In this document: positions 21,631-37,915 of the stretch, one piece after another
Layout of the letters: every line of letters starts with the position of its first letter
How positions within the stretch are numbered: the stretch's first letter is position 1
Assembly: GCA_002730875.1 (NCBI GenBank)
Contig: PCBI01000012.1
Coordinates: forward strand, 124,001 to 188,000
DNA: 64,000 nucleotides
DNA from: Spirochaetaceae bacterium
GTDB taxonomy: Bacteria; Spirochaetota; Leptospiria; Leptospirales; Leptonemataceae
Direction: 5' to 3'
Notes under the pieces: generated by a model
What the model was told of the DNA's origin: nothing
What the model saw: only the letters and a program-made list of their open reading frames with translations
Database searches by the model: none
Made by a program: the position numbers and the translations under genes

Positions 21631-23784
21631 ATGTCTAATATTTCGGCAGAATGTCTTGAAAGAGGGCACATGACCGTAAAGATTACTGAACTGGCGACCC
21701 GATTCATTGAAGAAATTACTTCTGCAATGAACCGGATTGAGGATCCGGAAGAGATTCTGGATGGTCTACTTTCGGATTGTATCGAAGCCACCCAGGCCGA
21801 TTCGGGAAGCATTATGCTCCTCGATTCAAAGGATGAGTATTTGGAGGCCAGGGTAGTGCGGGGCTTGAACCTGGTGGGCGGCAAGCTACGCCTCAAGGTA
21901 GGCGAAGGAGTCACCGGCTGGGTGGCTCGCGAAGGCAAATACAGACTTGTTAGCAATGCCAGCGAAGAGCAGGACTACATCCGTCTAAAGGAAGATCTTC
22001 AATCCGAATTGGCCGTTCCCATGATGGCCCGCGGCAAGATCATGGGTGTGCTCTCGGTAGATGCACAAAGGGCCGGAGCCTTTAGCCAGGAGGATGCGGA
22101 CTTCCTTCGCATCATGTCCAACCTGGCCTCGCAGATTTTTGTTCGCCTGGAAGATAACCGTCTGCTGAAGATTCGGGATCGCTTCCACCAGGTGATGATG
22201 GAGATTTCCAGGGTTGTATCGCACTCGCTGAAGCTGAAAGAAGTCTTTCGGGAGATTATGCAGATTACCGAAAAAGCGTTTCGGCTCAATCGCAGTACTT
22301 TATTCCTGTATAACAGCGAAGAAGACGCACTTAAGATTGCGGCCGCCAGCGGATTGGACGAAAGGGAGACCACTTCCATTGTCTATTCGCCCGGCGAAGG
22401 CATTACCGGCGGCGTCTTTCAGAGCAAGAAAGCCATATTTATTCCAAGTGTGCGCAACGAGCCCGGATTTCTGAACCGCATGAAAACGGTGCCCGAAAGC
22501 GGCGACATGGGCTACTTCTGCTGCCCCATTTTCTCGGGCACAGAAGTGGTGGGAGTTTTTTCCACTTTTACCCATCCGCAGACCGGAGTGGATCCGGAGT
22601 CGGTGTTGGAGTTTCTTGAGATCCTGGGTTCCATTATTTCGCAGGCGATTACGATTCAGCGACTGGTTCAGGAGGAGACCCGGGTAATCACAAGCGAAAA
22701 CCTGAAGCTCAAACAGGAACTGTCCAGTAGGTATCAATTCGGAAGTCTGATTGGACGATCCTCGGCCATGCTGAGACTGTTTGAGAAGGTGCGAATCATC
22801 GCCGACTCCCGAGCCTCGGTTCTGCTTACCGGCGAGTCCGGAACAGGTAAAGAGCTAATTGCCAGCGCAATACATTACAACAGTCCCCGGCGCGAGCGTC
22901 CTTTCATCAAGATCAACTGCGCGGCCATTCCCGAGAACCTGTTGGAAAGCGAGCTTTTCGGACATCGAAAAGGCGCATTCACCGGAGCCGTGGGCGATAA
23001 AAAAGGTAAATTCGAAATCGCCGATGGCGGGACCATCTTCCTGGACGAAATCGGCGAAATGGATCTGAACCTGCAATCCAAACTGCTTCGTGTACTCCAG
23101 GAACGGGAAATTGAGCCGGTAGGTGGACGGACGCGTCAGGTGGATATCCGTGTCATCGCCGCCACCAATGCGGACCTGGAGGATCTCATAGCCCAGAAAC
23201 AATTCAGGGCCGACCTGTACTACCGGCTAAACGTAATCAACCTTCGGATTCCGGCGTTGCGCGACCGGAAAGAGGATACAGTACTTCTGGTACATCATTT
23301 CATCGAGAAATACAACAAAGAAAACGAAAAGCAGATCACCGGAATATCCCACGATGCCATGCGAATGCTCGAGAACCATGACTGGCCGGGTAACGTTCGC
23401 GAACTGGAGAATGTAATCGAGCGAGCGGTTGTTATGGCGCAGAACTCTATTCTGGATGTGGACGATTTCACCGATATTACACTTCCGTTCAAAGCGGGGG
23501 AACCCGGTTCCTCGGGCCAGATCCGCGTGGCCGAGCCCACTCCTGATGATCCTGCGGAATCTCCGGTGGAGACGGCCTCGCCGCTAACCGCAGTGGTTTC
23601 AGAGGATGAACTGGACAACATGGAAGGAAAGGTTTACGAAACGGTGATTTCCGAGGTAGAGCGGCGGCTAATCATAATGGCGCTAAAGCGATTCCGTTAC
23701 ACAAAAACCAGGGCCGCCAGGTTTCTGGGCATAAACAGAAATACCCTGGATAAGAAGATTAAAGAACTGGAAATCGATTACTGA
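21631..23784 (+). CDS. Sigma-54-dependent transcriptional activator, GAF-GAF-AAA+-Fis
   Basis: 717 residues; GGGGAGGG about 9 bases before the ATG supports the start. Two GAF domains (about residues 20-170 and 190-345) form the sensor part, as in NifA/FhlA-type regulators. The AAA+ domain follows with the Walker A G-E-S-G-T-G-K-E, the sigma-54 contact loop G-A-F-T-G-A intact, Walker B I-F-L-D-E-I-G-E-M and the R-A-D-L-Y-Y-R-L-N-V arginine finger region. A serine/proline/glutamate linker (about 615-665) leads to a Fis-type helix-turn-helix at the C-terminus (T-K-T-R-A-A-R-F-L-G-I-N-R-N-T-L). It should remodel sigma-54 RNA polymerase in response to a small molecule or redox signal sensed by GAF. 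Its targets are not in evidence. Confidence 0.95.
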   Translation: MSNISAECLERGHMTVKITELATRFIEEITSAMNRIEDPEEILDGLLSDCIEATQADSGSIMLLDSKDEYLEARVVRGLNLVGGKLRLKVGEGVTGWVAREGKYRLVSNASEEQDYIRLKEDLQSELAVPMMARGKIMGVLSVDAQRAGAFSQEDADFLRIMSNLASQIFVRLEDNRLLKIRDRFHQVMMEISRVVSHSLKLKEVFREIMQITEKAFRLNRSTLFLYNSEEDALKIAAASGLDERETTSIVYSPGEGITGGVFQSKKAIFIPSVRNEPGFLNRMKTVPESGDMGYFCCPIFSGTEVVGVFSTFTHPQTGVDPESVLEFLEILGSIISQAITIQRLVQEETRVITSENLKLKQELSSRYQFGSLIGRSSAMLRLFEKVRIIADSRASVLLTGESGTGKELIASAIHYNSPRRERPFIKINCAAIPENLLESELFGHRKGAFTGAVGDKKGKFEIADGGTIFLDEIGEMDLNLQSKLLRVLQEREIEPVGGRTRQVDIRVIAATNADLEDLIAQKQFRADLYYRLNVINLRIPALRDRKEDTVLLVHHFIEKYNKENEKQITGISHDAMRMLENHDWPGNVRELENVIERAVVMAQNSILDVDDFTDITLPFKAGEPGSSGQIRVAEPTPDDPAESPVETASPLTAVVSEDELDNMEGKVYETVISEVERRLIIMALKRFRYTKTRAARFLGINRNTLDKKIKELEIDY

Positions 23785-23999: not shown

Positions 24000-26900
24000 C
24001 TACTGCGAAACTTGAATCCACCGTGAAGTAATTAGACGGTATCCATAGGCGGATTGCGTGTGACGAATATCGCGAATCATCAATGCAAAAGCATGTACGT
24101 AACGCTCCGCGAAGCTGCTTTCCGGTAGATCCCTGTCGTAGAAATGCTTCACAAAGAAAGCATGCGCCGTTCCGGTAGGTCGAGAGATGGTCAGGAGACC
24201 GGGACCGGAAGTGTTGTCGCTCATTCTGACAAAGAAATCCCGTAGTTGTCGGTTGTTTAGATCGGGCAGATAGGTGTTGGATACAAAATAGGGAATGCTT
24301 CTATCGTTGTAGATGGTTCCGTGCACATTCGCTGCGAAATGGTGGGATAGAGCCGGAATTCCCACGCTGGTATTTTTAAGCGCGCTAATCTCCATATCTG
24401 AGATTCTTCCAATCAGAGCATTATCCAGACCGGGATAGTAACCCGGATTTCCCGAGACCAGTACGCGGAAGTTCCCTTTTAGTTCCAGGCTTCCCGTAAA
24501 CGGACTGGCCCCGGCGATGGTGGAGGGATCCAGAACCTGATAGAGCTGGTCCCCGGTCCGAGGGATAATAGGCGCCAATGCATGCGCCGTGGGAAACCAG
24601 TAGTAGTGGGGTACTTCTGTGCGACCCGGAAGTACGGAACGATAGAAATCCGACAGAGTTGTGGCCAGTTGATCGTGGGGCTGGTTGTTGCGAATCCTGC
24701 GTCGGAATTCCTCCAGATTGGCGCGCATCTCTCTGGCATTGGCGCCCAGGTCTTTTTGGACCAGTCCGCCAGAAGAGAGTATAATCGAATAGAACCTGTC
24801 TCCGGCATCCACCAGCACAGTAAGTGTCTGGCCCTTTGGTATGGTGCGTATGATCATTCCGGCAATGTCGCGCATGGGCGGTAACTCATCGCCGGAGTTC
24901 AGGATAGCATCCTGATAGAACTCCAGATTTGCCAGGGTTTTCCAGTTACTGTCGCGAATGGCGCGGCGCTTCAGTAGATCCAGCGCCACACTCCTTTCCT
25001 GTTGCAGATTGGGCAACCCTGCGCCTTTTTCCAGTTCGCGGACGATCTTATCGTAGTCCCGGCGATCCGGCGCGCCAGGTAAACCAATGACCATATCGGC
25101 CATTCTTCGAACGGGAGTTACGTTCATGAACTCTCCCAGCAACGGATCCGAAATGGGTTTACCATAGAGACGGTACCACACCGCAAGTCGACCTCGGCGC
25201 ACTTCGTCGGTTTCCAGGGAGCCTTCCCGATACTCCAGATGTTTAGAATAGAAGCGAAAACCGGTATCGGCATCCATCTTGTTTAGATAAGCTTCGGATG
25301 CTACCAGGGCAAACCAGGATGCTCGGGCGCCGGAATACACCGCCTCGGCGGCGATTAGATCCTGTAACATGCCCGCGATTTGCAGGCCCGGGTCCACATC
25401 CACGGATTGTATTAACAGGTGAAACATTAAGGCCCTGTCTACACTGGAAAGATAGAGACAGCTGGTTTCGCCTTCGCCGGTGAGGCCCACCAGGTCTGTA
25501 ATCTGGCGACCATCGGGCAAAACGTTCTGAATGGCGGTAAATGCGTTGGCAGCGGAAAGATCCTCTTCTTTGACCGGAATGCATCTGAGCTGTTCGAAAG
25601 AGAGCGGAGTGCCAGTGCGGCTATTTTTCCATTGCTGTAGTAGTTGCTTGCGATGCTGTCCTTTTTCTTCGGGAACAGTGGTGGGCAGGTTCTCCACCAT
25701 GTCGTCGAAGAATTTCCAGCGTCCGGCCAGGGACTCCGCCAGAAGAAAGGAAGTCTCCGTTTCCACCGTATCTGGCACGACGAAATCTTGCTTATGGAGT
25801 AGAGCGCTTTGTATTCTGGCCTCGCCAGAATACTTTCTGCTTGCTGGAAGAAAATCCCCCTGAAGCATACTTTGTGCGCGGTCGGTGGCCCCATGCTTGA
25901 TCAAGTACCGAGCCGCCTCCTGTCGATCCTGCGGTCCCTGCAAGTATGCTTCCAGGGCGCCCGCCGAAAGTCTTGCCGCAGACAAATCTGCGGCCGGCGA
26001 AGATGAGCTCTGTAGAATCGCCAGGGCCAGATAGTTGCGGAGCCTGCCTGTCATGGATTCGCTGAGCTCTGGATAGGCGCTGGAGAATCGCGAGGAAAGG
26101 GTATCACCCTGGTCAATTTTTCCGGATTCGTAGAGTCCGCGGATTCTCTCGGAGAAAAGGAGTAATGCGTCTTCGGGTTGCTTTACAAGCTCCAGGGATT
26201 CTTCGAAGAAGGAGTCCCCCTGCAAAGAGTCCGTTCTGGCCAGAGCCCGATTCAGGAGGGCGGCTGCCCGAATACCATCTGGATTCGAAAGAAGTCTACG
26301 AAGCGACATCGCCTTTGATGCGAGCAAGGAGGCCGCTTCATTTTGTCTTTCATTCAAGGCATTCTCTGCCAGCGCTTCCGATTGTCTGGCATCTTGAAGA
26401 ATGTAATTTCGCATGGAATCCGAGTCAAAACCTGACACTCCAAAGATAGGCGCGGAACCGCTGGTGTAGGGTTTTTGGCCCGCCCAGGACTGGATTTCTT
26501 CGGATTCTCCATCTGTAACCACCGCCAGGGTGGCGCCCCCGGAAGCCCTGAATACTTCGTAAGCGTTTCGGATGGACTGATAGTACTCGATAGGATCTGC
26601 GGAGTCTGCTTTCAAAAATAGCACCGAGGCCAATTGGTCCTGGCGAAGGGCCTTTCTGGGGTCGTAGCCAGGATTCTCTCTTCCGGCAAAGATCTCAAAA
26701 GAAGGGGTTCCATCATAATGCAACTGATTGCTACTTTCCACGGGAGCAGGTCCGGCATTCCAAAGGTTCCGAACGCCGGACCAGTTTCTTGCTTCCCGTT
26801 CATCCACATAGCCCAGGGCATCCCCCATATCTCGGATGGTGGTGGTAAATACCGGCGAAGGCAAATCCGGTCTCATCGCCGGTATCTTTTTATGGAGTTC

Positions 26901-29900
26901 CCATTGGAAAGATTGATGGTCCGGAACCACAAAAAGAGCCCGGGCTTTCTCGGGTAGACAGGCCTCAATGAAAGAGTCTACATCCTGGTTTTCCAACGGG
27001 AAGAATCGGATGTTTCCATCGTGTACCAGACATCCCCCGCCGGCCTGGTTCGTGAAGAACTGAATCAACACCTCCCCGGGTCCGGGCCTGAGTACGCCTC
27101 TTTGTAGCGTCAGGAAAGGCCTTAGAAGCGGTCTTGATTCGGCCAGACTCCGCTGCACATAAGCCAGCTCATTTCGCAACTCCTGATTGTAGCGCGCGAT
27201 GCTGTCAAAGTTTTTGTGCTGTAGCCTGAGGATGGATTCCTGCCGTGAGCTTCTGTGCAGTGTCTGTAACGTTCCAATCATCACTCGATGTTGTTCGTCT
27301 TCAATACTGCTGCCCAAATTTAATGGGTACCGAAGAAACTGGGTCTGCAAATAGGTCTGTCGCTTTAGCTCTAACATCTCCATGGCCCGTTCATACTGGT
27401 TTCGGGAGATGTGGAATCTGGCCAGGCTGTCGAAATAATCGGGCAACCTGCTCGATACCCTGTGCATCAGATCGGGATACTCCAGAAGTATTCGCAGTGA
27501 CTTTTCGTAGTTCAAGGCAGCTTCCGCTGCATTGTTGCGGGCGAGGTAGGCGTCGCCCAGGCTGCGGTAGGTGGCCCAGTATTCGCGCAAGGAGTTGTAT
27601 TCATAGGTTTCGTCGGCCAGATCGCGCAACTCCTGAATGGCCTGGTCGGATTTGTTCAGCAGTAACTGTGTTCGGGCCAGGTTTAGTCGAGCCCGCATGG
27701 CCACAAATCCGGGAACCTGTCCTCGGGCGGCCAGGGCCTGTAGCGAATCCGAAAAGAGCTTTTCTGCCTTCCGCGCGGATTCCTGTGCCGCTTGTGAGTC
27801 TCCGTTGGCCGACTGTTTGAGCGCAATATAGTAATTGGATTGTCCCTCCAGAACAAGGAAGTCCACGAGACGTTGATTGACTCGTTCCTCCACAGCCGGG
27901 TCATCCCGTTTCTCTTCGTAGCTGAAGTCAGGGTCCTCTGTTTGCTTTTCGTCTATATAATCCTGCTTAACCTCTTCGCGGTACCGATCCTGTTGTGTGC
28001 GAATGGCTTCCAGGGATTCCCGCAGGCGTTCAATGCTTGCGTAGGGATGTCCGGCCTCCGCGGCCATGAAGAGTACCACATATGAGTTCTTGAAGTTTGT
28101 GAAAAAACTATCGAGAAAGTTCCAGTCCAGGGCCTTTTCGGCGGCATCCTGGAAGACTTCGTGTGCCTGCTGAAACTTCTGCAAGTTCAGGAGGTTGATG
28201 GCCTTGCTGTTTTCGGAGGAAAGCAGTCCTCGCTTACCCAGAATAACGTCGCCATCTTGTGATTCAAATACATCGCTTCGCTTTTCGATTAACTGCATGG
28301 CGCGATCCAGGTTGCCCAGGAGAACCGCGTTTTCCAATTGAATACCCAGAGATAACTCGTACTGGCGAAGGCTGGAAAATCCGTATGGAGTTCTTCCTTC
28401 GCCAATGACAGAAAAGTCTTCGCCATAGCCCAGAATACAATCCAGGGCGCGTCCGCCCATGGTCTGCGGTTGATAGCGGCTATCTTCTCGGTCCAGGCCC
28501 TGGTTCAGACTTACTTTTTCTGCAAGTTCAGCCGAATTGTCCGAAGCGTCGTACAGACCGGCGGATTGATAACTCATCGCCATGAAGTTTAGAAGTCCGC
28601 TCCGGGCCACTCCATCCGGCACGGCCGGCTTCTGACGGTACAGAATATACTCCGCCTCTCTATAGGACGAAATGGCCTGTCTGTACCGGCCGGCTTCGCT
28701 GAGCGCCAGGCCGCGTAGCGAGGAAATCAATGCGAGTCGGTAGCGGCTCTTGAGTAGTTTCTGTTCGGTCTCGGCTAGAAGCTTGTCCAGATAGGCGGGG
28801 TAGTTTTCGCCGGACGTTCGGAACTTTAGCTCGGTGTACCTCTGAAATACCGGGTTGTATTCATTCTGCTCAAAAATGGATCGTGCCTGCTGCAAGTCCT
28901 CGGCCGCTCGCAAGACGTCGCCTTCGTAGTAGGCGGAGCGCCCGCGGTTGAAGAAGTACAGGGCCTCCTGCAGGTAACCCGAAAATACCGGATGCGAGCT
29001 CTGGTTGCGCAAGTCTTCCACAAGTTTGTAGTGCTCGGAGGCTCGCTTGAAGTTGAGCAGTTTGAAATGGTTGTTGGCCAGGTTCAGGTTCAGGAGGGCC
29101 TTGCTTTCCGGGTTGGAGTTCTGACCGAGTCGCGTTATCGCCTGATTATAGAGTTCGATGTTTTTCTCGTAGAGTCGGTCGGGAAAATAGGCCACATAGA
29201 GATCCCTGTAGTAGGCCCCGTCCTGATACTCCGCCGGTCGGGCACCGGTGATGGTGCGAAAAGCTTGCTCTACCAGGTCCGGTTCGATGAGTAGCTTTGA
29301 CTCTCTTCGTTCGTCCACGTACTGGTAGAGCCAACCCAGAAGCAAATAGGCATCCACATTGTCCGGCTCCACGTACAGGATATACTGGAGCTGGTATTCA
29401 GCTTCTTTCAGGTCTCGAAGTACTGCCTCTTTCTTCTCTTTCAAAAAGGCATTACTGAGATCTTCCCCTTCCTGAAGTAAGCTGTCATAGAATTGTTCTC
29501 TTTCTACCGACTTCTGGACCAGGGAATAGGCATAACCGTAAAGTAGCGAGTGGTCAAAAAATTGACGGGCTTCGGGAGCGGCGTAGCGATAACCGTAGAC
29601 GACTTCGTTGAAAATCCTGGCTTCGAAGGGGTCCCCTTCGCTAAGCAAGTCCGTAAGCGGAGCAGTGGGATCAAGTTCGATCTTCTGTCTTTCCCAGGCT
29701 AGCCGCTTCTGATTTCTTTCCACGGCCAGATCCACTTTCATTCGATGGAAAAAGATGGCCTTTCTCTTATACAACTCCGGAAACAGATCGGCTTTCTTTA
29801 CGAATAGAAAGAGAATGTTCATGCTATTCGCATTGGCGTAGCTGGAAAGATACAGCAAGTCCGCCGCTGCCTGAGCGTCCTTGAAAGGCAGCTCCACGGT

Positions 29901-32246
29901 CCTTCCGCTGAAGAAGTCCTGATTGCCGCTGCAGAAATCCTGATATTGTTTCAGGTAATCCGGTATTCCCAGGCTGCGAATCAGCGTAACTGCGGAAGAC
30001 TCGGGCGCACAAAAGTCCCTCAACACTTCTCTATCGCTCAGTTTAAGCGAAAGGGTTTCCCGGCTCAGGTCCAGCTCCACAACGGCCAGGCCAACGCCAA
30101 ATCTGCGTTCGCTTCTTTCTTCCAGGTCGGAATAGATTGAGCGAGCCGTATCACGATAGGTGCGGACCAGTTGCTCCGAGTCCTCGACGATGCCCTGGAA
30201 TTCCTGAGCCGAGATTTCCACCCCGGAATCTGGCGTGTAGGAACCCCCGTAGATTAGCTTGGCGCTGTAAGCGGCTGTGCTGTTTTGGAGAGCTTCCTCT
30301 GCAAAGGCGATTGTCTGCCATCCGCGAAGATACAGGCCCGTTTTTTCGGGAACGCCATCCAGTCCCTGGCGGGTAACCTGGATCGCTTGTTCGTATTGCC
30401 GGTCATTCTGGAGCAATCGTCCCCTGGCGATCAAGAGCGCGGACCGGATGGCGGGATTGGGTTCCGGAAGGAGATTGTCTATAGCTCGCATTCCGTTGGA
30501 TGGCAGCATGGATTCGAATTCGTTGAATACAGAGGCCAGGATTTGCTCGCGCAGAGCGGCGGGCAGGTTTCCGTCTTGCAGCAAAGTGCGAAAAACATCG
30601 GGAATGCGTTGTCTTGTACTCAGAAAGAGCTGGCCCTGGAGCACCGACGCTTCGTATCGCCGAAAATAATCCGGGAATCGCTGGTTCAAACGTTCCAGGG
30701 TGCCAAGGGCGGCACTCCTGGCGCCGGACTCGGCCTGAGCTCGGCCTAACTCTTCCATCAGGTAAGCCCTGGCCATATCTCTACGGTCCGGATCCAATCC
30801 GGCGGCAGTGGTTTCGGCCGCCCGTTGGAGAATGGCGGCCCGGCCTGCCGGACCAACGGGCGTGGCATACAACTGACGATCCAATTGGACCATGGGATTT
30901 CGGTTTAAGGCCTGGTCGATTCGCCTGTCCACTGCCAGGATTTCGTCACGGTTTCCGTCCTGGCGCAAGGTGTTTCGCAGGCGATAAAGCGACTTTCCCT
31001 CGTATAAGAAGAACTGCGGCGATTCGGCATGATAGAGCCGAACCGCCTCCAATGCCAGAGCGTATCGTTCTGGATAGTCGCGGTAATCTTCAGCCTGTTC
31101 GTATTGCTTATCCACCCGGGGTTGTCCCGGGATCATACCGGATCGCGGGGTGACATAGATGTTCACCGTATTGTACAAATCCGCAGCATAAAGAATAGTG
31201 CCCTGTTCGAAACCTGAGTAAGCGATGGAGTAGATGGGAACGCTACTTTCGATCAGTCTGTATCGCTCGGGCAGGGTGGTGTTTTCGATTACATCCTGAA
31301 CGCTGACGCCCGCAACCGAGGCCCGGTCGGCCTGATCCAGTATTCCGTTGCGGTTTGTGTCTTCACGAACGATTCCGTAGTAAACTGTCTGTCCGTCGGA
31401 AGATATAGAAGGACGAAAGTACATGTAAGGTCGGGCTTCGGGTCCATAGTCCAGGGGAAGCCTGTGCCGTTCATTTGTAGTTGTATCCAGGATCTCAATG
31501 TGCGGTGTGTTGTTTCCGGTGCGAATCAGATAAGTGACATATCGGCCATCAGCGGAGATTGACGGCTGCATGGAATTCTCTTCCGTAACGGGTCGCGGCA
31601 GCGCTTCGCTTTCCTGTTCTTCCAGTTCCAGAGACCATATCCGGTAGATCCCTGGATTGCATCGATCGCTTACAAAATAGATCGTATCCCCGTTGGGCGA
31701 AAGCACCGGGTCGCGTTCCGCAAAGCTTCCCTTGCATCCGGGACCCAGCTTTTCGCCTACACTGTCCAGGTACCGGGATAGATTGATTGAACTGCTCCAC
31801 AGGTTGGGGGGATCTTCGCCCAGCAGGGCCGCCTCTACTACGGTTTCGGGCTCCAGAGCTACAATGCGGATGTCGCCACCTGCGTCCAATTCGAAGGAAA
31901 CATAGGTTAAGATTGTGCCGTCGGGAGTGATGTATGGATCTGTCTGTTCGGCGGGGTGTCGGACTACGGGAACGTTTACCGTGCTTCCCAGGTCGCGCAT
32001 CCAGATGTCCGAGGAGCCGTCCACATCGGAAGCGTAAAAGAGGTAGCCGCTACTGGAGGCGGATGGGTCTGTATTATTGCCGCGCTGAACAGTTAAAGGA
32101 AAGTGTCCTTCGGGGTTATTTTCCAGGAAACGGGAGATAAGGCGATTGTAGTCAAACCTGGGGGGTTGTATCGTCTTTACGGTGGCGCACTGCAATAGAG
32201 TGACCAGCAAAAGAATCAGGGGGAGAATAGTTCCAGTTCTTTTCAT
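24000..32246 (-). CDS. Giant lipoprotein: TolB-like propeller, TPR tracts and two degenerate CHAT-like domains
   Basis: 2748 residues. The start is the ATG at 32246, which overlaps by one base the stop of the DUF1318 gene (TAATG) and gives a perfect leader ending V-T-L-L-Q-C; the longer frame from 32285 is not needed. Residues about 50-370 are WD40/TolB-like propeller repeats (D-P-V-L-S-P-N-G-D-T-I-Y-F-V-S-D and similar), with a Ca2+-loop-like D-T-N-R-N-G-I-L-D-Q-A-D near 300. About 390-1700 is a long series of TPR-type helical pairs. About 1715-1950 resembles a CHAT domain (E-V-L-I-Q-F-F, L-F-V-V-P-D-H-Q-S-F-Q-W-E). After more helices, residues about 2474-2748 form a second one (L-T-V-L-V-D-A-G-D-R-F-Y, S-H-H-F-A-A-N-V-H-G). 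Where active CHAT proteases have the S-A-C cysteine, I read V-L-F-L-K-A-D and L-L-T-I-S-R-P, so both look non-catalytic. It is exported and lipid-anchored; a scaffold role is inferred. Confidence 0.85.
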   Translation of the reverse strand: MKRTGTILPLILLLVTLLQCATVKTIQPPRFDYNRLISRFLENNPEGHFPLTVQRGNNTDPSASSSGYLFYASDVDGSSDIWMRDLGSTVNVPVVRHPAEQTDPYITPDGTILTYVSFELDAGGDIRIVALEPETVVEAALLGEDPPNLWSSSINLSRYLDSVGEKLGPGCKGSFAERDPVLSPNGDTIYFVSDRCNPGIYRIWSLELEEQESEALPRPVTEENSMQPSISADGRYVTYLIRTGNNTPHIEILDTTTNERHRLPLDYGPEARPYMYFRPSISSDGQTVYYGIVREDTNRNGILDQADRASVAGVSVQDVIENTTLPERYRLIESSVPIYSIAYSGFEQGTILYAADLYNTVNIYVTPRSGMIPGQPRVDKQYEQAEDYRDYPERYALALEAVRLYHAESPQFFLYEGKSLYRLRNTLRQDGNRDEILAVDRRIDQALNRNPMVQLDRQLYATPVGPAGRAAILQRAAETTAAGLDPDRRDMARAYLMEELGRAQAESGARSAALGTLERLNQRFPDYFRRYEASVLQGQLFLSTRQRIPDVFRTLLQDGNLPAALREQILASVFNEFESMLPSNGMRAIDNLLPEPNPAIRSALLIARGRLLQNDRQYEQAIQVTRQGLDGVPEKTGLYLRGWQTIAFAEEALQNSTAAYSAKLIYGGSYTPDSGVEISAQEFQGIVEDSEQLVRTYRDTARSIYSDLEERSERRFGVGLAVVELDLSRETLSLKLSDREVLRDFCAPESSAVTLIRSLGIPDYLKQYQDFCSGNQDFFSGRTVELPFKDAQAAADLLYLSSYANANSMNILFLFVKKADLFPELYKRKAIFFHRMKVDLAVERNQKRLAWERQKIELDPTAPLTDLLSEGDPFEARIFNEVVYGYRYAAPEARQFFDHSLLYGYAYSLVQKSVEREQFYDSLLQEGEDLSNAFLKEKKEAVLRDLKEAEYQLQYILYVEPDNVDAYLLLGWLYQYVDERRESKLLIEPDLVEQAFRTITGARPAEYQDGAYYRDLYVAYFPDRLYEKNIELYNQAITRLGQNSNPESKALLNLNLANNHFKLLNFKRASEHYKLVEDLRNQSSHPVFSGYLQEALYFFNRGRSAYYEGDVLRAAEDLQQARSIFEQNEYNPVFQRYTELKFRTSGENYPAYLDKLLAETEQKLLKSRYRLALISSLRGLALSEAGRYRQAISSYREAEYILYRQKPAVPDGVARSGLLNFMAMSYQSAGLYDASDNSAELAEKVSLNQGLDREDSRYQPQTMGGRALDCILGYGEDFSVIGEGRTPYGFSSLRQYELSLGIQLENAVLLGNLDRAMQLIEKRSDVFESQDGDVILGKRGLLSSENSKAINLLNLQKFQQAHEVFQDAAEKALDWNFLDSFFTNFKNSYVVLFMAAEAGHPYASIERLRESLEAIRTQQDRYREEVKQDYIDEKQTEDPDFSYEEKRDDPAVEERVNQRLVDFLVLEGQSNYYIALKQSANGDSQAAQESARKAEKLFSDSLQALAARGQVPGFVAMRARLNLARTQLLLNKSDQAIQELRDLADETYEYNSLREYWATYRSLGDAYLARNNAAEAALNYEKSLRILLEYPDLMHRVSSRLPDYFDSLARFHISRNQYERAMEMLELKRQTYLQTQFLRYPLNLGSSIEDEQHRVMIGTLQTLHRSSRQESILRLQHKNFDSIARYNQELRNELAYVQRSLAESRPLLRPFLTLQRGVLRPGPGEVLIQFFTNQAGGGCLVHDGNIRFFPLENQDVDSFIEACLPEKARALFVVPDHQSFQWELHKKIPAMRPDLPSPVFTTTIRDMGDALGYVDEREARNWSGVRNLWNAGPAPVESSNQLHYDGTPSFEIFAGRENPGYDPRKALRQDQLASVLFLKADSADPIEYYQSIRNAYEVFRASGGATLAVVTDGESEEIQSWAGQKPYTSGSAPIFGVSGFDSDSMRNYILQDARQSEALAENALNERQNEAASLLASKAMSLRRLLSNPDGIRAAALLNRALARTDSLQGDSFFEESLELVKQPEDALLLFSERIRGLYESGKIDQGDTLSSRFSSAYPELSESMTGRLRNYLALAILQSSSSPAADLSAARLSAGALEAYLQGPQDRQEAARYLIKHGATDRAQSMLQGDFLPASRKYSGEARIQSALLHKQDFVVPDTVETETSFLLAESLAGRWKFFDDMVENLPTTVPEEKGQHRKQLLQQWKNSRTGTPLSFEQLRCIPVKEEDLSAANAFTAIQNVLPDGRQITDLVGLTGEGETSCLYLSSVDRALMFHLLIQSVDVDPGLQIAGMLQDLIAAEAVYSGARASWFALVASEAYLNKMDADTGFRFYSKHLEYREGSLETDEVRRGRLAVWYRLYGKPISDPLLGEFMNVTPVRRMADMVIGLPGAPDRRDYDKIVRELEKGAGLPNLQQERSVALDLLKRRAIRDSNWKTLANLEFYQDAILNSGDELPPMRDIAGMIIRTIPKGQTLTVLVDAGDRFYSIILSSGGLVQKDLGANAREMRANLEEFRRRIRNNQPHDQLATTLSDFYRSVLPGRTEVPHYYWFPTAHALAPIIPRTGDQLYQVLDPSTIAGASPFTGSLELKGNFRVLVSGNPGYYPGLDNALIGRISDMEISALKNTSVGIPALSHHFAANVHGTIYNDRSIPYFVSNTYLPDLNNRQLRDFFVRMSDNTSGPGLLTISRPTGTAHAFFVKHFYDRDLPESSFAERYVHAFALMIRDIRHTQSAYGYRLITSRWIQVSQ

Positions 32247-32872
32247 TACTTCCGAACCCAGGCGCCCACAGGATTCCGAATCCATTCGCCGCTGCGCGTT
32301 CTATAATAGAAAGAACGCAGGAAGGCCTCCGCTTCCCGAGGTTGGATGCGTGCCAGGTATGCATAAATGGCACGACGCGAGCGATTGGTTTGTTCGGCGG
32401 CTATCAGGGCTTTCTGCAGGCTTTCCGCCGAAACATTCCCCTGGTAGGCCGCAGGGGTTCGCATTACTCGCCCATCGTAGGATTCGCCCAGGACACCCAG
32501 GTTGCGGTAACGTTGAACAATGTCTGAGTAAAACTCCAGGATGCGATATTCCTGACGTATTTCCGGGGAGTACCCGGACAACTCCTGGTTGCCCGCAGGA
32601 AGCGCGGACGATGAAGCGACCAGCCAGCCGTCTTCCACCAGCTCCTTTTCTTCACCAATCAATTGCCTTTCGGCGGCCGTGCGAGCCGGAGTCAGAGTAA
32701 TGGGAGGTAGATCCACGCTGACCACAGTACATTTTCCCAGGTATTCCGTAACCGGATCTGTAGCCACTGTGAGCACCTTGGGCGTGCTGGTGGAAGAGCA
32801 ATATCCTGAAAGCAACAGAAATGCCGGAAGTAGAATTAAGGGGAGTCTGGATTGGCTTCGGGGATGTGTCAT
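32246..32872 (-). CDS. DUF1318 (YdbL-like) lipoprotein
   Basis: 208 residues from the ATG at 32872 (M-T-H-P-R-S), which has AGGA about 8 bases upstream inside the end of the AsmA-like gene. The upstream part of the open frame to 32995 is antisense-free but lies within that gene in another frame and is not needed. The leader ends L-L-L-S-G-Y-C, a lipobox. The C-terminal half matches DUF1318: G-V-L-G-E-S-Y-D-G-R-V, A-A-E-Q-T-N-R-S-R-R-A-I-Y-A-Y-L-A and the closing G-E-W-I-R-N-P-V-G-A-W-V-R-K. In E. coli, YdbL is encoded with the AsmA-like YdbH and the small lipoprotein YnbE in an intermembrane lipid-transport system. Here the domain is itself on a lipoprotein, with about 100 extra residues before it (T-P-A-R-T-A-A-E-R-Q-L-I-G-E). 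Confidence 0.85.
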   Translation of the reverse strand: MTHPRSQSRLPLILLPAFLLLSGYCSSTSTPKVLTVATDPVTEYLGKCTVVSVDLPPITLTPARTAAERQLIGEEKELVEDGWLVASSSALPAGNQELSGYSPEIRQEYRILEFYSDIVQRYRNLGVLGESYDGRVMRTPAAYQGNVSAESLQKALIAAEQTNRSRRAIYAYLARIQPREAEAFLRSFYYRTRSGEWIRNPVGAWVRK

Positions 32873-32876
32873 TTTT

Positions 32877-35800
32877 CTATTCCTGACTGCTGGCGGTTTC
32901 TCGGGTGAATCGACTGGATTCGGTGCGTGCTCGTTCCAGGAATTCCGCCAACGGAATCCTTTCCTGCCGAATCTCTTCTTCGGAGGGACGTACAAGCACC
33001 GAAAGTGATAGAAGGGATGGCCTTTTAACTTTCACCGAGGTGTAGATCAGTCCTCCCTTGAGTTCCACTTGAATGGCCGGAATTTCCAGGGTATTGTTCA
33101 CCGCAAATGCAATGGCATCGTTGGGGATTAGCAATCGCACGGCGAATCCGGTAAACTCTTCACTGATCCGGTACACTGACAATCGCATATTTGTATTTCG
33201 TATGAAGTCGGAGAGGTCCCGACCGGAGAAGGATAGATCCCCGCTGATGATACCGTCAAAGTTGGAGTCGGAATCCGGAAAGAACGGCGCCAGATTCAGG
33301 TTATGGATTTGGAGGAAGCCTGCATACTCCATGTTGGCCGGAGCCAGGTCAGCAGCGTTGAAGAAAATCCTCTTGCCCTGGATGGTTCCGTCCCGGGCCC
33401 AGACTTCGCCGGTACGGGCATCCCTTTGCTTGAAAATCTTTGCGTCGATCCAATCGATCATAAAAACGTTTCGGCGGTAGTCCATGCGCCCGGAAACTCC
33501 GAAACCCCTGGAAGGATCCAGCGAACCCAGATAGAAGTGGCTTTCCGGCTTGTAGGTGCCGCCGGGAGTGTGGCTGGAAGCCACGAACTTAACGGTGAAG
33601 TTCGGATCGCTTCGAAACCCTGTGTCGTTCAAAGCCAGGCCGCTGGATGTGTCGGACAGGCGCACGGGATCCTTCATAGCCATGCTATGCCGGATCGGAA
33701 GGTTCAGGTTCAGCTTCTCGATCCGTAGACGTCGGCAGGCCGGGGATTCGGGAACCCGGCAGTTGCCGGTATTCACCTGGATGTCCAGGTCATTTATGTA
33801 GATTCCGCCGGTGGCCACCTGCGGATTAACGTCCAGGTTGATCTGTACGCCGCCCTGAATGGAAACGTTTTCGTGTACCGGCAGCATTTGCTCCCGGGCC
33901 AGGTTTAACCGGAACTGTAGATAGGGTTGCAACTCCGGCCCGGTATTCAGCGATCCGGAGAGCGATGCGTTCAATGCCCCCCGCAATCCGGCGATGCGAA
34001 GCATGGGAATGGATATCTGATTCTCGGAGATGTTGGTATTCACCGCCAGGTTCAGGGAGTCCTGACTGATGGATGGAATGGTAAGATTGCCGTTCCCCTG
34101 AATGGAAGTTCCCTCCTTGCTGGACTGTACGCTGGACTGAAGGCTCAGAATTAATCCATCCTTCAAATAGGCGCCGTAAGGCGCTATGGGGTACTTCAGT
34201 CTTGCCGGCAAGGTGGTGAGCATGGGGGCATAGTTAATGCCAAGGCGGTTTATGGTTGCATCATAGGACTGATTACCCTTGCCAAAAACCAGTTCGGAAG
34301 AACCAGCAAGGTTCAAAAATCCAATACCCGCCGCATTGGTGCCATTGAGAGTCAATCGCTCAATGGAGATGCGAGTGGACTCTTCGCCAAACAGCAGCTT
34401 GCCGGCTGTATTCAACGTCAGATTGTTTATGCCGGAGCGGGACCGACCAATGGAGTATCGTCCGCCGTAAACAGTGAGCGTTCCCGACACATCCAGTTCA
34501 TCAAAGTTTTCTGTGGACTGGGCCTGTAAATCTGTGCCCGCGATTCCGGTGACATGAGGAGCCAGGAATTGCCCCAGGTTGAATCCGTTGATTCGAATGT
34601 TTGCGTTTACTCCCTGGCCGGGATTTATGGAACCGCTGGCCTGCAGGGTTGCCCCATTGTAGCCTCCGGAAAGCTCTTTTAGTTCCAATCGGTGGACCAG
34701 TCCGTAAGCCAGTTTCTTTTTTTCCTGCTCCCGGTCGTACTGTTCGGGGGGACGCAGAAATGGGAGGGTCTCATACAGGTTTATGGCGCCTCGGGAATGG
34801 AGCTCAAGTGTAGAGACGTTATGACTACCGCCAGGACCATTTAGATACAACCCCTGGCCTTCCGCATTGATTTCAAAATCCAGTTCGCTCAGGGGACCCT
34901 TTAGTCGCACGGGATACAGGGAAAGATAACCTCCCATGCGAATCCTTCCATTGGTGAGCATGGAAAGAAATTGTCCCGGCTCGTCGAGAAGGATTTCCGA
35001 TCGAAGCACCGACAGGTCCACCGCCGGGGTTCCTTCCGTAAGCCGGTCTACCCTGGCTTCCAGAGCGAGCCATTGACGACCGTTGTAGCTAACGCTGAAA
35101 TCGCGATAGATCAAAGCGTCTTCTTCTTGATTGTAGGATGTATTGTATTGAGCCAGTAGACCGGGAGTGGCGGGAGCATAGCCCGGACGACTCATTGTTA
35201 AGGATGTCCCGTCGACGTTTAGTAGCGAAGAGAATATCCCCTGGCCGTCCACTACCTGGCGAAACATTCGAAAAGCCAGCGTTAGCTCTCCCTCCAGACG
35301 ATTTCCATTGCTATATTCAACATTCACCGGACCGTACGGATTGATGGCGACTACCAGAGTTTCAAAAAGGTCCAGCGCATCCGTGTTAAGAGGGATAGTG
35401 TTGAAGGTTTCGGTAATGAACGCCAGGCGAACGTCCAGGCCGGACAGATCCAGTGTCTGATTCTGCGTTTCGCTGTGATAGTAGAATTGCAGATTGCGCA
35501 CGTCAATGTTTGCGTACAACTTAACGGGCAAATAAGTGCTGATGCTTTCGCGAGGTTCCTTCTTTTCGGCGTCGCTTTCGCTTTTCTTTTTTTCCTTTTT
35601 CTCGCCGGACGACAGGTAATCCAGATTCCATACGCCGTCCTTTTCGGTAACGTAGATCTTCGCATCCTTCAAACCCAGTTCCCGAATACCCACATGACCG
35701 GCCAGGATTCCCGGCAAAAACCAGGTAAGCTTCAATTCCGGGATGCTGACGATGGGATCGCCGTTTTCGGTGTTTAGCTGAATATCCTGGAAGTGGAATC

Positions 35801-35975
35801 CGTGTAACAGGCTGGACCGCCGCACATCGATATGCAGACGACTACGAGTAACCATGGGAACGGTTTTCTCCAGAATGTATTGAACCGTGGCCGGATAAAG
35901 AAGTATCTGGTAGGCGAGGATGACACCGAACAGAACAATTATGATTTTTGCGAATCTGCGCCAGGCCGGTCTCAT
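32877..35975 (-). CDS. AsmA/YdbH-like inner-membrane protein, probable intermembrane lipid bridge
   Basis: 1032 residues. One N-terminal membrane helix (I-I-I-V-L-F-G-V-I-L-A-Y-Q-I-L-L-Y) is followed by an AsmA-like start (V-T-R-S-R-L-H-I-D-V-R-R-S-S-L-L-H-G), a lysine/glutamate-rich insert (about 125-145) and about 850 residues of alternating beta strands, the composition of TamB/YhdP/YdbH proteins that form a hydrophobic groove across the periplasm. The end (E-L-K-G-G-L-I-Y-T-S-V-K-V-K-R-P-S-L) resembles the strand-pairing region where YdbH-type proteins meet an outer-membrane lipoprotein. The gene lies 4 bp before the DUF1318 lipoprotein gene, which supports the YdbH interpretation. A phospholipid-transport role is inferred from family knowledge. 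Confidence 0.82.
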   Translation of the reverse strand: MRPAWRRFAKIIIVLFGVILAYQILLYPATVQYILEKTVPMVTRSRLHIDVRRSSLLHGFHFQDIQLNTENGDPIVSIPELKLTWFLPGILAGHVGIRELGLKDAKIYVTEKDGVWNLDYLSSGEKKEKKKSESDAEKKEPRESISTYLPVKLYANIDVRNLQFYYHSETQNQTLDLSGLDVRLAFITETFNTIPLNTDALDLFETLVVAINPYGPVNVEYSNGNRLEGELTLAFRMFRQVVDGQGIFSSLLNVDGTSLTMSRPGYAPATPGLLAQYNTSYNQEEDALIYRDFSVSYNGRQWLALEARVDRLTEGTPAVDLSVLRSEILLDEPGQFLSMLTNGRIRMGGYLSLYPVRLKGPLSELDFEINAEGQGLYLNGPGGSHNVSTLELHSRGAINLYETLPFLRPPEQYDREQEKKKLAYGLVHRLELKELSGGYNGATLQASGSINPGQGVNANIRINGFNLGQFLAPHVTGIAGTDLQAQSTENFDELDVSGTLTVYGGRYSIGRSRSGINNLTLNTAGKLLFGEESTRISIERLTLNGTNAAGIGFLNLAGSSELVFGKGNQSYDATINRLGINYAPMLTTLPARLKYPIAPYGAYLKDGLILSLQSSVQSSKEGTSIQGNGNLTIPSISQDSLNLAVNTNISENQISIPMLRIAGLRGALNASLSGSLNTGPELQPYLQFRLNLAREQMLPVHENVSIQGGVQINLDVNPQVATGGIYINDLDIQVNTGNCRVPESPACRRLRIEKLNLNLPIRHSMAMKDPVRLSDTSSGLALNDTGFRSDPNFTVKFVASSHTPGGTYKPESHFYLGSLDPSRGFGVSGRMDYRRNVFMIDWIDAKIFKQRDARTGEVWARDGTIQGKRIFFNAADLAPANMEYAGFLQIHNLNLAPFFPDSDSNFDGIISGDLSFSGRDLSDFIRNTNMRLSVYRISEEFTGFAVRLLIPNDAIAFAVNNTLEIPAIQVELKGGLIYTSVKVKRPSLLSLSVLVRPSEEEIRQERIPLAEFLERARTESSRFTRETASSQE

Positions 35976-35984
35976 TCTGTGAAT

Positions 35985-37268
35985 TCAGCTCCGAGGCTCC
36001 CCAGGGGAGTGCTCTCTTTTTTCCGGGTCCCTCATTAGAAGGAAACTAAAAAAAACCAGCCCATGAATGACCAGAGAAGCCAGAAAGACCGGTCCAAAGT
36101 CCAAAAACTCGGCCGACGGCAGGCCCTGGGTGCCTGGCATATCCCCTGTTAGGTCCTGCAACCTTGCCGGCAGGTTCCATTCCAAAAGCAGCCCTGCCAG
36201 ATAGGAGCCAATCAGCGCTCCCGAAGCGGTGGCCAGTACCATGAATAGTCCCTGACCCGTGCCGTAGAGATGATCCGGATAGAAATGTCGCAACCTGAAT
36301 ATGGTACCCATGTAGTAGCCGGTGAAATGGATGCCATGCAGTAGCTGCGTCAGTAGGAGGCCGGGGATCTCATCCAGCGTATCCCAGTAGAACAGGCCAA
36401 ATCGAAGTATGCCCGCGCCGGTACCGATCAAGAACAAAGGCGTGGACCCGAATCGAGCATGGATCCGGGCGCATAGCGGTAGGAATGGTAGCTCTAGCAA
36501 AGTGGCCAGACACCAGCCGCCATAAACCCCGGCCATGCCGTACCGCTGATTCAGATAGCCGCCCAGGTAATAATCTACTGTTTGATACCCCGAGAAATAC
36601 ACAAAGGAAATGGCAAAGAATAGGAAGACCGGACGATGCCTCAATGTGTTGAGCGCTTCCAAAAAGTAATACTTCGCCCCGGCCCGTCGATCCTTCTGAA
36701 CAAACAGGCAGGCGATGGCGAAGAGCAGCAGGAAGGCCGAGCCAATCCTTCCGCCGGTACCGCTGGTCGAGACCTCCGTGGATAGCAGACCGGGAAACCT
36801 GGTTTCGAGAACGAAGAGAACAACGTGAACGATGAAGAACCCCAGGGTGCCAGCGCTTCGGCTCAACGAAAAGCCTTTTAGCTCCAGGCTTTCCAGGGTT
36901 GCGATGGTTAGCAATTGCATGTTCGCGGCGAAGAAGAACCTGGTGACTCCGCCCAGGAGGGTCGCTCCTTCCAGATCCAGGCCTGGCCAGTACAGAAAAT
37001 ACTGGCAGGGCGCATGCAGAAGCACCATGGGTACCAGTAGTCCGCGAATCGTCTGAAATCGGTCCGAAAGATATCCTGCGATAAAATAGCCGGCGGGAAA
37101 GGCGATCTGCCCGGCCAGAAATACGAATCGGGCATCGCTTCCAAACCGATCCAGCATATAAGGGCTCAAAGTTGAAAAATAAGAGCCATGACCCAGGAAA
37201 TAGAGAAAGTAGAGAAGGGCGTATATCAAGTGTCCCTGCCTGGTTCCATACCGGCGGCTTTCTGGCAT
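35985..37268 (-). CDS. Major facilitator superfamily transporter (LacY/HcaT-like MFS_1)
   Basis: About 427 residues with around twelve membrane helices. The first helix, F-L-Y-F-L-G-H-G-S-Y-F-S-T-L-S-P-Y-M, is the LacY-like opening, and the loop after helix 2 reads G-Y-L-S-D-R-F, the MFS motif A position. The start is uncertain. ATG 37268 (M-P-E-S-R-R) is listed. A TTG at 37229 overlaps the TGA of the acyltransferase gene in the usual TTGA arrangement and would also give a complete first helix; the frame from 37382 is too long. Substrate not predictable. It is placed between the DUF374 acyltransferase and the AsmA-like gene (9-bp gap), so a lipid or lipid-precursor role, like that of lysophospholipid transporters, is possible but unproven. 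Confidence 0.82.
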   Translation of the reverse strand: MPESRRYGTRQGHLIYALLYFLYFLGHGSYFSTLSPYMLDRFGSDARFVFLAGQIAFPAGYFIAGYLSDRFQTIRGLLVPMVLLHAPCQYFLYWPGLDLEGATLLGGVTRFFFAANMQLLTIATLESLELKGFSLSRSAGTLGFFIVHVVLFVLETRFPGLLSTEVSTSGTGGRIGSAFLLLFAIACLFVQKDRRAGAKYYFLEALNTLRHRPVFLFFAISFVYFSGYQTVDYYLGGYLNQRYGMAGVYGGWCLATLLELPFLPLCARIHARFGSTPLFLIGTGAGILRFGLFYWDTLDEIPGLLLTQLLHGIHFTGYYMGTIFRLRHFYPDHLYGTGQGLFMVLATASGALIGSYLAGLLLEWNLPARLQDLTGDMPGTQGLPSAEFLDFGPVFLASLVIHGLVFFSFLLMRDPEKREHSPGEPRS

Positions 37269-37915
37269 CGATACATGTTTTCCATCATGGCTGATTGGAT
37301 CCTTTCTATTGAGAGGGTCAAATCCTGGTTCTCGCCCGGGTCCAGGTAAATCGGGTCTCCATAGCTCATATACAGTTTGCAAAAGGGGGCCGGTATCCGG
37401 TGTTTATCCCAGGCATGATTCGCTACCCACTGTCTGGTTCCTTCGTAATGGAAGGGAATAATTGCTACTTTCGTTGACCGGCCCAGAGCTACGATTCCTG
37501 CCTTTGCCTGAAACGCCGGGCCCAGAGGCCCATCCGGTACGATGCAGGCAGGATGTCCATCCTTCAAAAGTCCTATCAACGTTTTCAGGGCTCTGGCACC
37601 GTTTTTTCCGCTGCTTCCTCTAACGCATTGATTGCCGGAACTCTCTACAACCCTTGCGATGATTTCGCCGTCACGGGAAGGGGAGATCATCGCCTTAATG
37701 CCATGGTTTCTGTGAAAAAAAGGGGCCCAGAGCACACAGCAATGCCATACTGCCAGGATATACGGTTCCTTCGACTGGCGAATTCTTTCGAATGGTTCTG
37801 CGTTCAGGTATTTCTTTTGGATGGTGAGTCTGACCATTCGTTGTAGTGTATAAATGATCCAGGGAAGGGTCGCCGTGAGTACTCTTGATAAGAGGGAGTT
37901 TTCCTTGATTCGCAT
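37226..37915 (-). CDS. DUF374-family lysophospholipid/lipid A-type acyltransferase
   Basis: 229 residues. The conserved block I-S-P-S-R-D-G-E-I-I-A-R-V-V-E, V-R-G-S-S-G-K-N-G-A-R-A-L and I-V-P-D-G-P-L-G-P-A is the DUF374 signature, a branch of the LpxL/LPLAT superfamily. The W-H-C-C-V-L-W segment at about 57-63 takes the place of the H-x4-D acyltransfer motif start; the aspartate is not obvious at the standard spacing, so I do not claim catalysis by that motif. An N-terminal hydrophobic patch suggests inner-membrane association. It overlaps the MFS transporter start downstream and follows the DUF486 gene by about 55 bp on the same strand. A role in lipid A or phospholipid acylation is inferred. 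Confidence 0.85.
   Translation of the reverse strand: MRIKENSLLSRVLTATLPWIIYTLQRMVRLTIQKKYLNAEPFERIRQSKEPYILAVWHCCVLWAPFFHRNHGIKAMISPSRDGEIIARVVESSGNQCVRGSSGKNGARALKTLIGLLKDGHPACIVPDGPLGPAFQAKAGIVALGRSTKVAIIPFHYEGTRQWVANHAWDKHRIPAPFCKLYMSYGDPIYLDPGENQDLTLSIERIQSAMMENMYRCQKAAGMEPGRDT

Follow-up and report, generated by a model that had tools for sequence, protein, structure and literature searches.

We found that the window, the whole stretch of 64,000 nucleotides that was analysed, encodes a giant protein, predicted to be a CHAT-derived lipoprotein, which in two phyla is nearly always inherited together with an AsmA-like protein and a small lipoprotein. This pattern points to an undescribed component in the building of the outer envelope. 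With slightly better than even confidence we propose that it serves an AsmA-type envelope module as its third component, acting there as a lipid-anchored pseudo-protease scaffold or regulator, and that it arose from an exported TPR-CHAT peptidase. All components are members of known superfamilies; a CHAT-derived component in an AsmA-type envelope system is unusual, and a literature search found no paper with both a CHAT domain and AsmA and none with the locus tags LIC_11026-11028. The features are listed below by their position in the window.

24000..32246, minus strand: giant protein of 2748 aa, predicted exported lipoprotein, with propeller, TPR, CHAT-like 1, TPR-like and CHAT-like 2 regions (ORF, Pfam, AF2, Foldseek, hhalign)
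32187..32246, minus strand: predicted signal peptide with lipobox Cys20 (MKRTGTILPLILLLVTLLQC); Cys in 38/38 class homologues
31077..32069, minus strand: TolB-like PD40 beta-propeller, residues 60-390 (PD40 1.8e-18; TIGR02800 39 bits, below the cut-off)
31326..31364, minus strand: EDTNRNGILDQAD, EF-hand-like (calcium-loop-like) motif inside the propeller, residues 295-307 (alignment conservation)
27177..31049, minus strand: TPR superhelix region, residues 400-1690 (sub-threshold TPR_2; strong TPR matches in relatives)
28857..29594, minus strand: best-conserved block of the TPR region, residues 885-1130 (containing AYLLLGWLYQYVD; class alignment)
26427..27089, minus strand: putative internal CHAT-like domain (pseudo), residues 1720-1940 (hhalign to KSB1-type CHAT1)
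24003..24959, minus strand: C-terminal CHAT domain (pseudo; no Cys), residues 2430-2748 (AF2, Foldseek)
32246..32872, minus strand: DUF1318 (YdbL-like) lipoprotein, 208 aa (PF07027 28.5 bits, cut-off 27)
32877..35975, minus strand: AsmA-like protein, 1032 aa (NCBIfam NF047499, LIC_11026 family; DUF748; 437 bits, cut-off 325)
35985..37382, minus strand: MFS-type transporter directly upstream of AsmA, probable operon member (same cluster in 9 loci)

The giant open reading frame starts with MKRTGTILPLILLLVTLLQC, a hydrophobic signal peptide ending in LLQC, and the lipobox Cys was present in all 38 class homologues that have this column. Judged from sequence only, the protein is thus predicted to be exported and lipid-anchored, which agrees with the initial annotation of a 2748-residue exported lipoprotein with propeller and TPRs. 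Most of the KSB1-type homologues that we read apparently carry ordinary signal peptides instead of a lipobox. The Pfam scan detected PD40 four times (E 1.8e-18) and TPR_2 below threshold, and both propeller and TPR score strongly in relatives. The order of TPR before CHAT was recovered, with a weak TPR signal in the window protein and a strong one in relatives. A profile search for CHAT, TPR and PD40 had been suggested as a check; it was positive for PD40, sub-threshold for TPR and, for CHAT (PF12770), without a direct match in either CHAT-like region of the window protein and positive in its relatives. Inside the propeller the EF-hand-like loop was highly conserved in the class alignment (D296 and D307 in 39/39, N298 in 38/39, D304 in 36/39), and the KSB1-type consensus at this loop is DTNGDGxxDPxD. 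By its sequence the loop may bind calcium.

Of the 48 class genomes, 43 contain a homologue of the giant gene, complete copies encoding approx. 2450-3100 aa, and the gene is therefore not an artefact of this one assembly. When the giant protein was used as a single-sequence query against the genome contigs no kin were retrieved; residues 885-1130 used as a profile picked up relatives elsewhere in Spirochaetota and in genomes of the KSB1/Calditrichota type.

The giant gene is the last of a tight operon with the order AsmA-like gene, DUF1318 lipoprotein gene, giant gene. The stop codon of the DUF1318 gene overlaps the start of the giant gene in a TAATG junction, so that the overlap with the YdbL-like gene, for which co-translation had been proposed, is real, and the stop codon TAG of the AsmA-like gene is followed by AAAA-ATG of the DUF1318 gene. 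The DUF1318 lipoprotein has the PF07027 domain, and its family is homologous to E. coli YdbL (hhalign 96.3%). The AsmA-like protein belongs to the AsmA superfamily; the window copy scored below the Pfam cut-off for DUF748 and above that of NF047499, a name that is a sign only that this gene is known from Leptospira. A search for the same gene beside AsmA-like genes in other Leptospirales had also been advised; across two phyla we found a three-gene operon conserved in 31 distinct loci, the DUF1318 gene lying between the AsmA-like and the giant gene in all 31. Some KSB1-type loci (L114, L117) have an extra gene inserted ahead of the giant gene.

Several further observations were made on the surroundings. 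The MFS-type gene stops some 10 bases short of AsmA, and upstream on the same strand there is also a DUF374 gene (window 35985-37915); the MFS cluster upstream of AsmA in 9 loci hints at a larger lipid-related operon. On the other side, convergent with the giant gene, window 21631-23784 encodes a GAF-GAF-sigma54 activator-Fis HTH regulator that recurs in several relatives. Turneriella-type loci have a GAF-SpoIIE phosphatase after the giant gene instead; we rejected its equation with the GAF-sigma54 gene of the window, as the two clustered through their GAF domains only. At one locus (L046, genome G013) the AsmA-like neighbour of the giant gene is split into three ORFs, which reflects either gene decay or a faulty assembly. 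Genomes of genus 18 and of family f2 (L055, L058, L148, L150, L151, L153, L154) carry both the giant and the AsmA-like gene in a second copy, and in the split copies of family f2 the DUF1318 lipoprotein gene stays beside the giant or the AsmA-like gene.

Co-occurrence extended this picture beyond the neighbourhood. Among the 48 genomes of the class, 42 had both the AsmA-like and the giant gene, four had neither and two were discordant, both being low-completeness assemblies. Across the rest of Spirochaetota (thresholds: giant core E <= 1e-25, AsmA E <= 1e-70) 35 genomes had both, 163 neither and one AsmA alone, and 30 of the 35 pairs were adjacent on one contig. In the KSB1-type phylum the two genes occurred together in 55 genomes and were jointly absent from 20, with seven discordant genomes (2 giant only, 5 AsmA only); the AsmA-like gene was upstream on the same strand in 33 of the pairs, on the other side in three and on a different contig in 19. 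Fisher tests of co-occurrence were extreme, on counts that ignore phylogeny. Most revealing is the Turneriella-type family f6, in which the three genes lie far apart (at approx. 1.29, 1.95 and 2.22 Mb in G041) yet are all kept. All three genes are absent from family f5 (G033, G034). Brachyspira-like genomes (family f14, genus g36) contain a weaker AsmA relative (E ~1e-65), and no giant gene was detected in them. The initial annotation had named homologues unconnected to the AsmA/DUF1318 pair as evidence against its proposal. Such cases were confined to some families whose genomes hold all three genes in dispersed order, and conserved operon and co-occurrence in two phyla make the link of the giant gene to AsmA/DUF1318 far stronger than one neighbourhood could show.

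These distributions also bear on two other explanations. Defence and conflict systems, e.g. Craspase, include many CHAT proteins as well as large repeat proteins, and the giant protein is very large and diverges rapidly in its C-terminal half; it could therefore be a conflict or adhesion protein located beside AsmA by chance. Near-universal retention in the class, joint absence with AsmA and the separation of the two phyla by a branch of the tree described below are atypical for defence genes, and we regard this explanation as very improbable. The second explanation, which we consider unlikely, is that the protein is a scaffold recruiting or activating a separate envelope protease or hydrolase, the AsmA link reflecting shared regulation of envelope growth and not lipid traffic. 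TPR lipoproteins with such a role are known, LbcA serving CtpA and NlpI serving peptidoglycan hydrolases (PMC8764530, PMC7049810). TPR and propeller would suit a general scaffold, and CHAT ancestry indicates a past tie to proteolysis, but the constant partners were the AsmA-like and DUF1318 proteins and no other neighbour family was comparably conserved.

To the C-terminal region (residues 2430-2748) structure prediction and fold search were applied, as had been recommended. The AF2 alignments contained Spirochaetota rows only and the canonical KSB1-type CHAT relatives were left out, so that a CHAT answer could not be imposed. The resulting model (pLDDT 86.7, pTM 0.89) had TPR-CHAT/Csx29 as best Foldseek match in the PDB (E 1.4e-6, probability 1.00), separase and SAVED-CHAT ranking after it. 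Profile-profile comparison of the core with the KSB1-type domain gave 94.7% (6.3e-8), against at most 0.9% in controls. From the model we can say confidently that this region has a caspase/separase-like fold related to TPR-CHAT, in line with the caspase-like fold that had been anticipated; a mismatch, named beforehand as evidence against the proposal, did not arise for this region.

A His-Cys dyad with a SAC-type Cys, as in CHAT peptidases, was present in neither CHAT-like region of the window protein, and residues 2430-2748 contain no cysteine at all. The motif LLTISRP (2684-2690) had been taken as the former S-A-C site near residue 2685; it does lack a Cys, but its counterpart in the alignment is the CHAT strand that follows the catalytic Cys (SLLASLWKVDD) and not SAC. 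The equivalent of the Cys loop is probably IPYFVSNTY (2651-2659). The possible histidine noted in the motif NVHG, His 2642, is matched by a His in the two same-genus kin that we checked and is not conserved across the family. Since the fold is maintained in the AF2 model, an unrecognised catalytic activity through other residues might be imagined for the C-terminal domains. The missing cysteine in the window protein and the finding of no invariant residue in alignments A4 and A5 make this hardly credible.

The core of the internal region (residues 1720-1940) matched the KSB1-type CHAT1 domain in hhalign with 97.2% (3.7e-11). As controls we used reversed profiles and seven further regions of the giant protein, and these reached at most 0.9%. 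KSB1-type CHAT1, the counterpart of the internal region, itself matches PF12770 with 60 bits; by this homology to a PF12770-positive domain the internal region appears to be CHAT-derived. The AF2 model was weak (pLDDT 73, pTM 0.69) and Foldseek gave no significant match and no CHAT structure, so the evidence for a CHAT origin consists of the profile comparisons. The initial annotation of two CHAT-like domains was thus borne out by fold for the C-terminal one and by profile for the internal one, whose own model had no CHAT match. The string VLFLKAD is located at 1875-1881 and not near residue 1885 as first reported.

The KSB1/Calditrichota-type relatives carry two Pfam-level CHAT domains, for instance L114, whose C-terminal domain matches PF12770 with 215 bits and whose internal one does so with 60 bits, TPR arrays lying around both. 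Profile-profile comparison also showed the two KSB1-type domains to be homologous (99.9%). The PF12770 match drops to 21-25 bits in other Spirochaetota members and is gone in the window protein. A C-terminal SACETG-type motif was kept in 20 of the 26 complete KSB1-type genes examined; SACETG or SACESG was read at the C terminus of 15 of 20 newly fetched genes, and the motif is also found in L114, L116, L117, L118 and L120. The six complete KSB1-type genes without it are L122, L126, L129, L130, L131 and L135. No internal domain in any gene examined contained the motif, nor did either region of any Spirochaetota member examined, in which the few chance SAC-like strings were never followed by E-T/S-G. 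We concluded that the origin of the giant protein in a protease, proposed earlier, is well supported.

In a tree of the conserved block, which was quick, unrooted and partly weakly supported, the Spirochaetota and the KSB1-type members each fell on one side of a branch. The SAC state required three changes on this tree, two of them inside the KSB1-type set, and by CHAT homology the direction of change was probably loss. In the same tree L090, titled Caldithrix sp., stood among Turneriella-type Spirochaetota, near-identical to L087, and is probably a mislabelled MAG, and the conserved block of L112, titled Actinomycetota, was near-identical to that of the Calditrichota record L111. The genome of the window encodes one Pfam-positive CHAT protein elsewhere (L001, G000:C8:34235-35071; 610-aa frame, 85 bits).

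The distribution of the motif could also be explained by a proteolytic switch, in which an active periplasmic CHAT peptidase of KSB1-type bacteria cuts the AsmA-like or the DUF1318 partner when propeller and TPR sense a signal, and the Spirochaetota keep the platform without cleavage. The SACETG/SACESG motifs listed above fit this, as does the presence of AsmA-like genes in all 13 such KSB1-type genomes checked. Since two distinct parts of the KSB1-type set and the Spirochaetota have kept the genes but not the motif, cleavage would be dispensable, and we judge such a switch to be improbable.

In the module that we favour, the AsmA-like protein, the DUF1318 lipoprotein and the giant protein would be made from one operon. 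The AsmA-like protein would be the expected inner-membrane anchor and trans-periplasmic bridge (for the E. coli literature see PMC8593681, PMC8912898), and by analogy the DUF1318 lipoprotein may be the YdbL-type partner of this bridge and the giant lipoprotein an additional component in the periplasm. The propeller, the TPR superhelix and the two dead CHAT domains would be binding modules for bridge and partner, through which the giant protein would most likely dock, stabilise or gate the bridge at the outer membrane. We infer the physical complex, the membrane of residence and the gating role. The ancestor would have been an exported TPR-CHAT peptidase; of the CHAT domains, the internal one has degenerated in every relative examined, and the C-terminal one is still intact in most KSB1/Calditrichota-type relatives but degenerate in Spirochaetota. 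More tentatively, and with well under an even chance in our estimate, this is a three-component envelope system widespread in both groups of bacteria, in which the exported caspase-like TPR-CHAT protein would have control over an AsmA-type lipid bridge. Most KSB1-type members would exert this control through proteolysis, the Spirochaetota through a pseudo-protease switch.

The question of which partners an AsmA-type bridge requires has been posed as an open one (PMC12977461), and the near-fixed set of AsmA-like protein, DUF1318 lipoprotein and giant CHAT-derived protein common to two phyla bears on it. It would place CHAT (caspase-like) proteins in the cell envelope, and within one gene family the CHAT domains form a natural series, from canonical ones with SAC to dead ones. 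Since most of the carriers known here are uncultivated and a giant propeller-TPR-CHAT gene is absent from the E. coli ydbH locus, work on model organisms would have missed the protein.

Among known systems, E. coli ydbH-ynbE-ydbL, which encodes YdbL (PMC8593681), likewise combines an AsmA-superfamily gene, a DUF1318 (YdbL-type) gene and a lipoprotein; there YdbH and the outer membrane lipoprotein YnbE act together in lipid transport (PMC11784454, PMC12977461). Unlike in E. coli, the DUF1318 protein in the window is itself the lipoprotein. It had no profile similarity to YnbE, and the idea of a YnbE-YdbL fusion was dropped for its YnbE half. Pairwise profile comparison of the AsmA-like protein with E. 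coli YdbH likewise gave no similarity, and a direct match to YdbH was discarded. With neither a YnbE-like lipoprotein nor a YdbH-type AsmA protein, the window set was not assigned to YdbH-YnbE-YdbL, and lipid transport and a lipid cargo are therefore suggested for this AsmA subfamily by analogy with the superfamily only. The adjacent AsmA-like protein is a member of the LIC_11026 family (NF047499; 437 bits, cut-off 325), a hypothetical-equivalog family for which the literature search found no tie to a CHAT-derived protein. TolB and PorE (PG1058)-type proteins share the PD40 propeller, which is TolB-like by profile. To our knowledge CHAT domains do not occur in them. The window protein scored 39 bits for TIGR02800 (TolB), far below the cut-off of 343; PG1058 is a multidomain envelope protein (PMC5053529). 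Cyanobacterial HetF also combines CHAT and TPR, is membrane-associated and is tied to envelope growth (PMC8406250), but it has one TM segment and interacts with FtsI, and the domain map published for it consists of CHAT, TM and TPR, with neither propeller nor second CHAT. The TPR-CHAT peptidases, with Csx29 of Craspase, share the caspase-like C-terminal fold and the TPRs adjoining CHAT. Unlike these, the giant protein has no catalytic Cys and no direct Pfam CHAT match, is predicted to be exported and lipid-anchored, and carries two CHAT-type domains in one chain.
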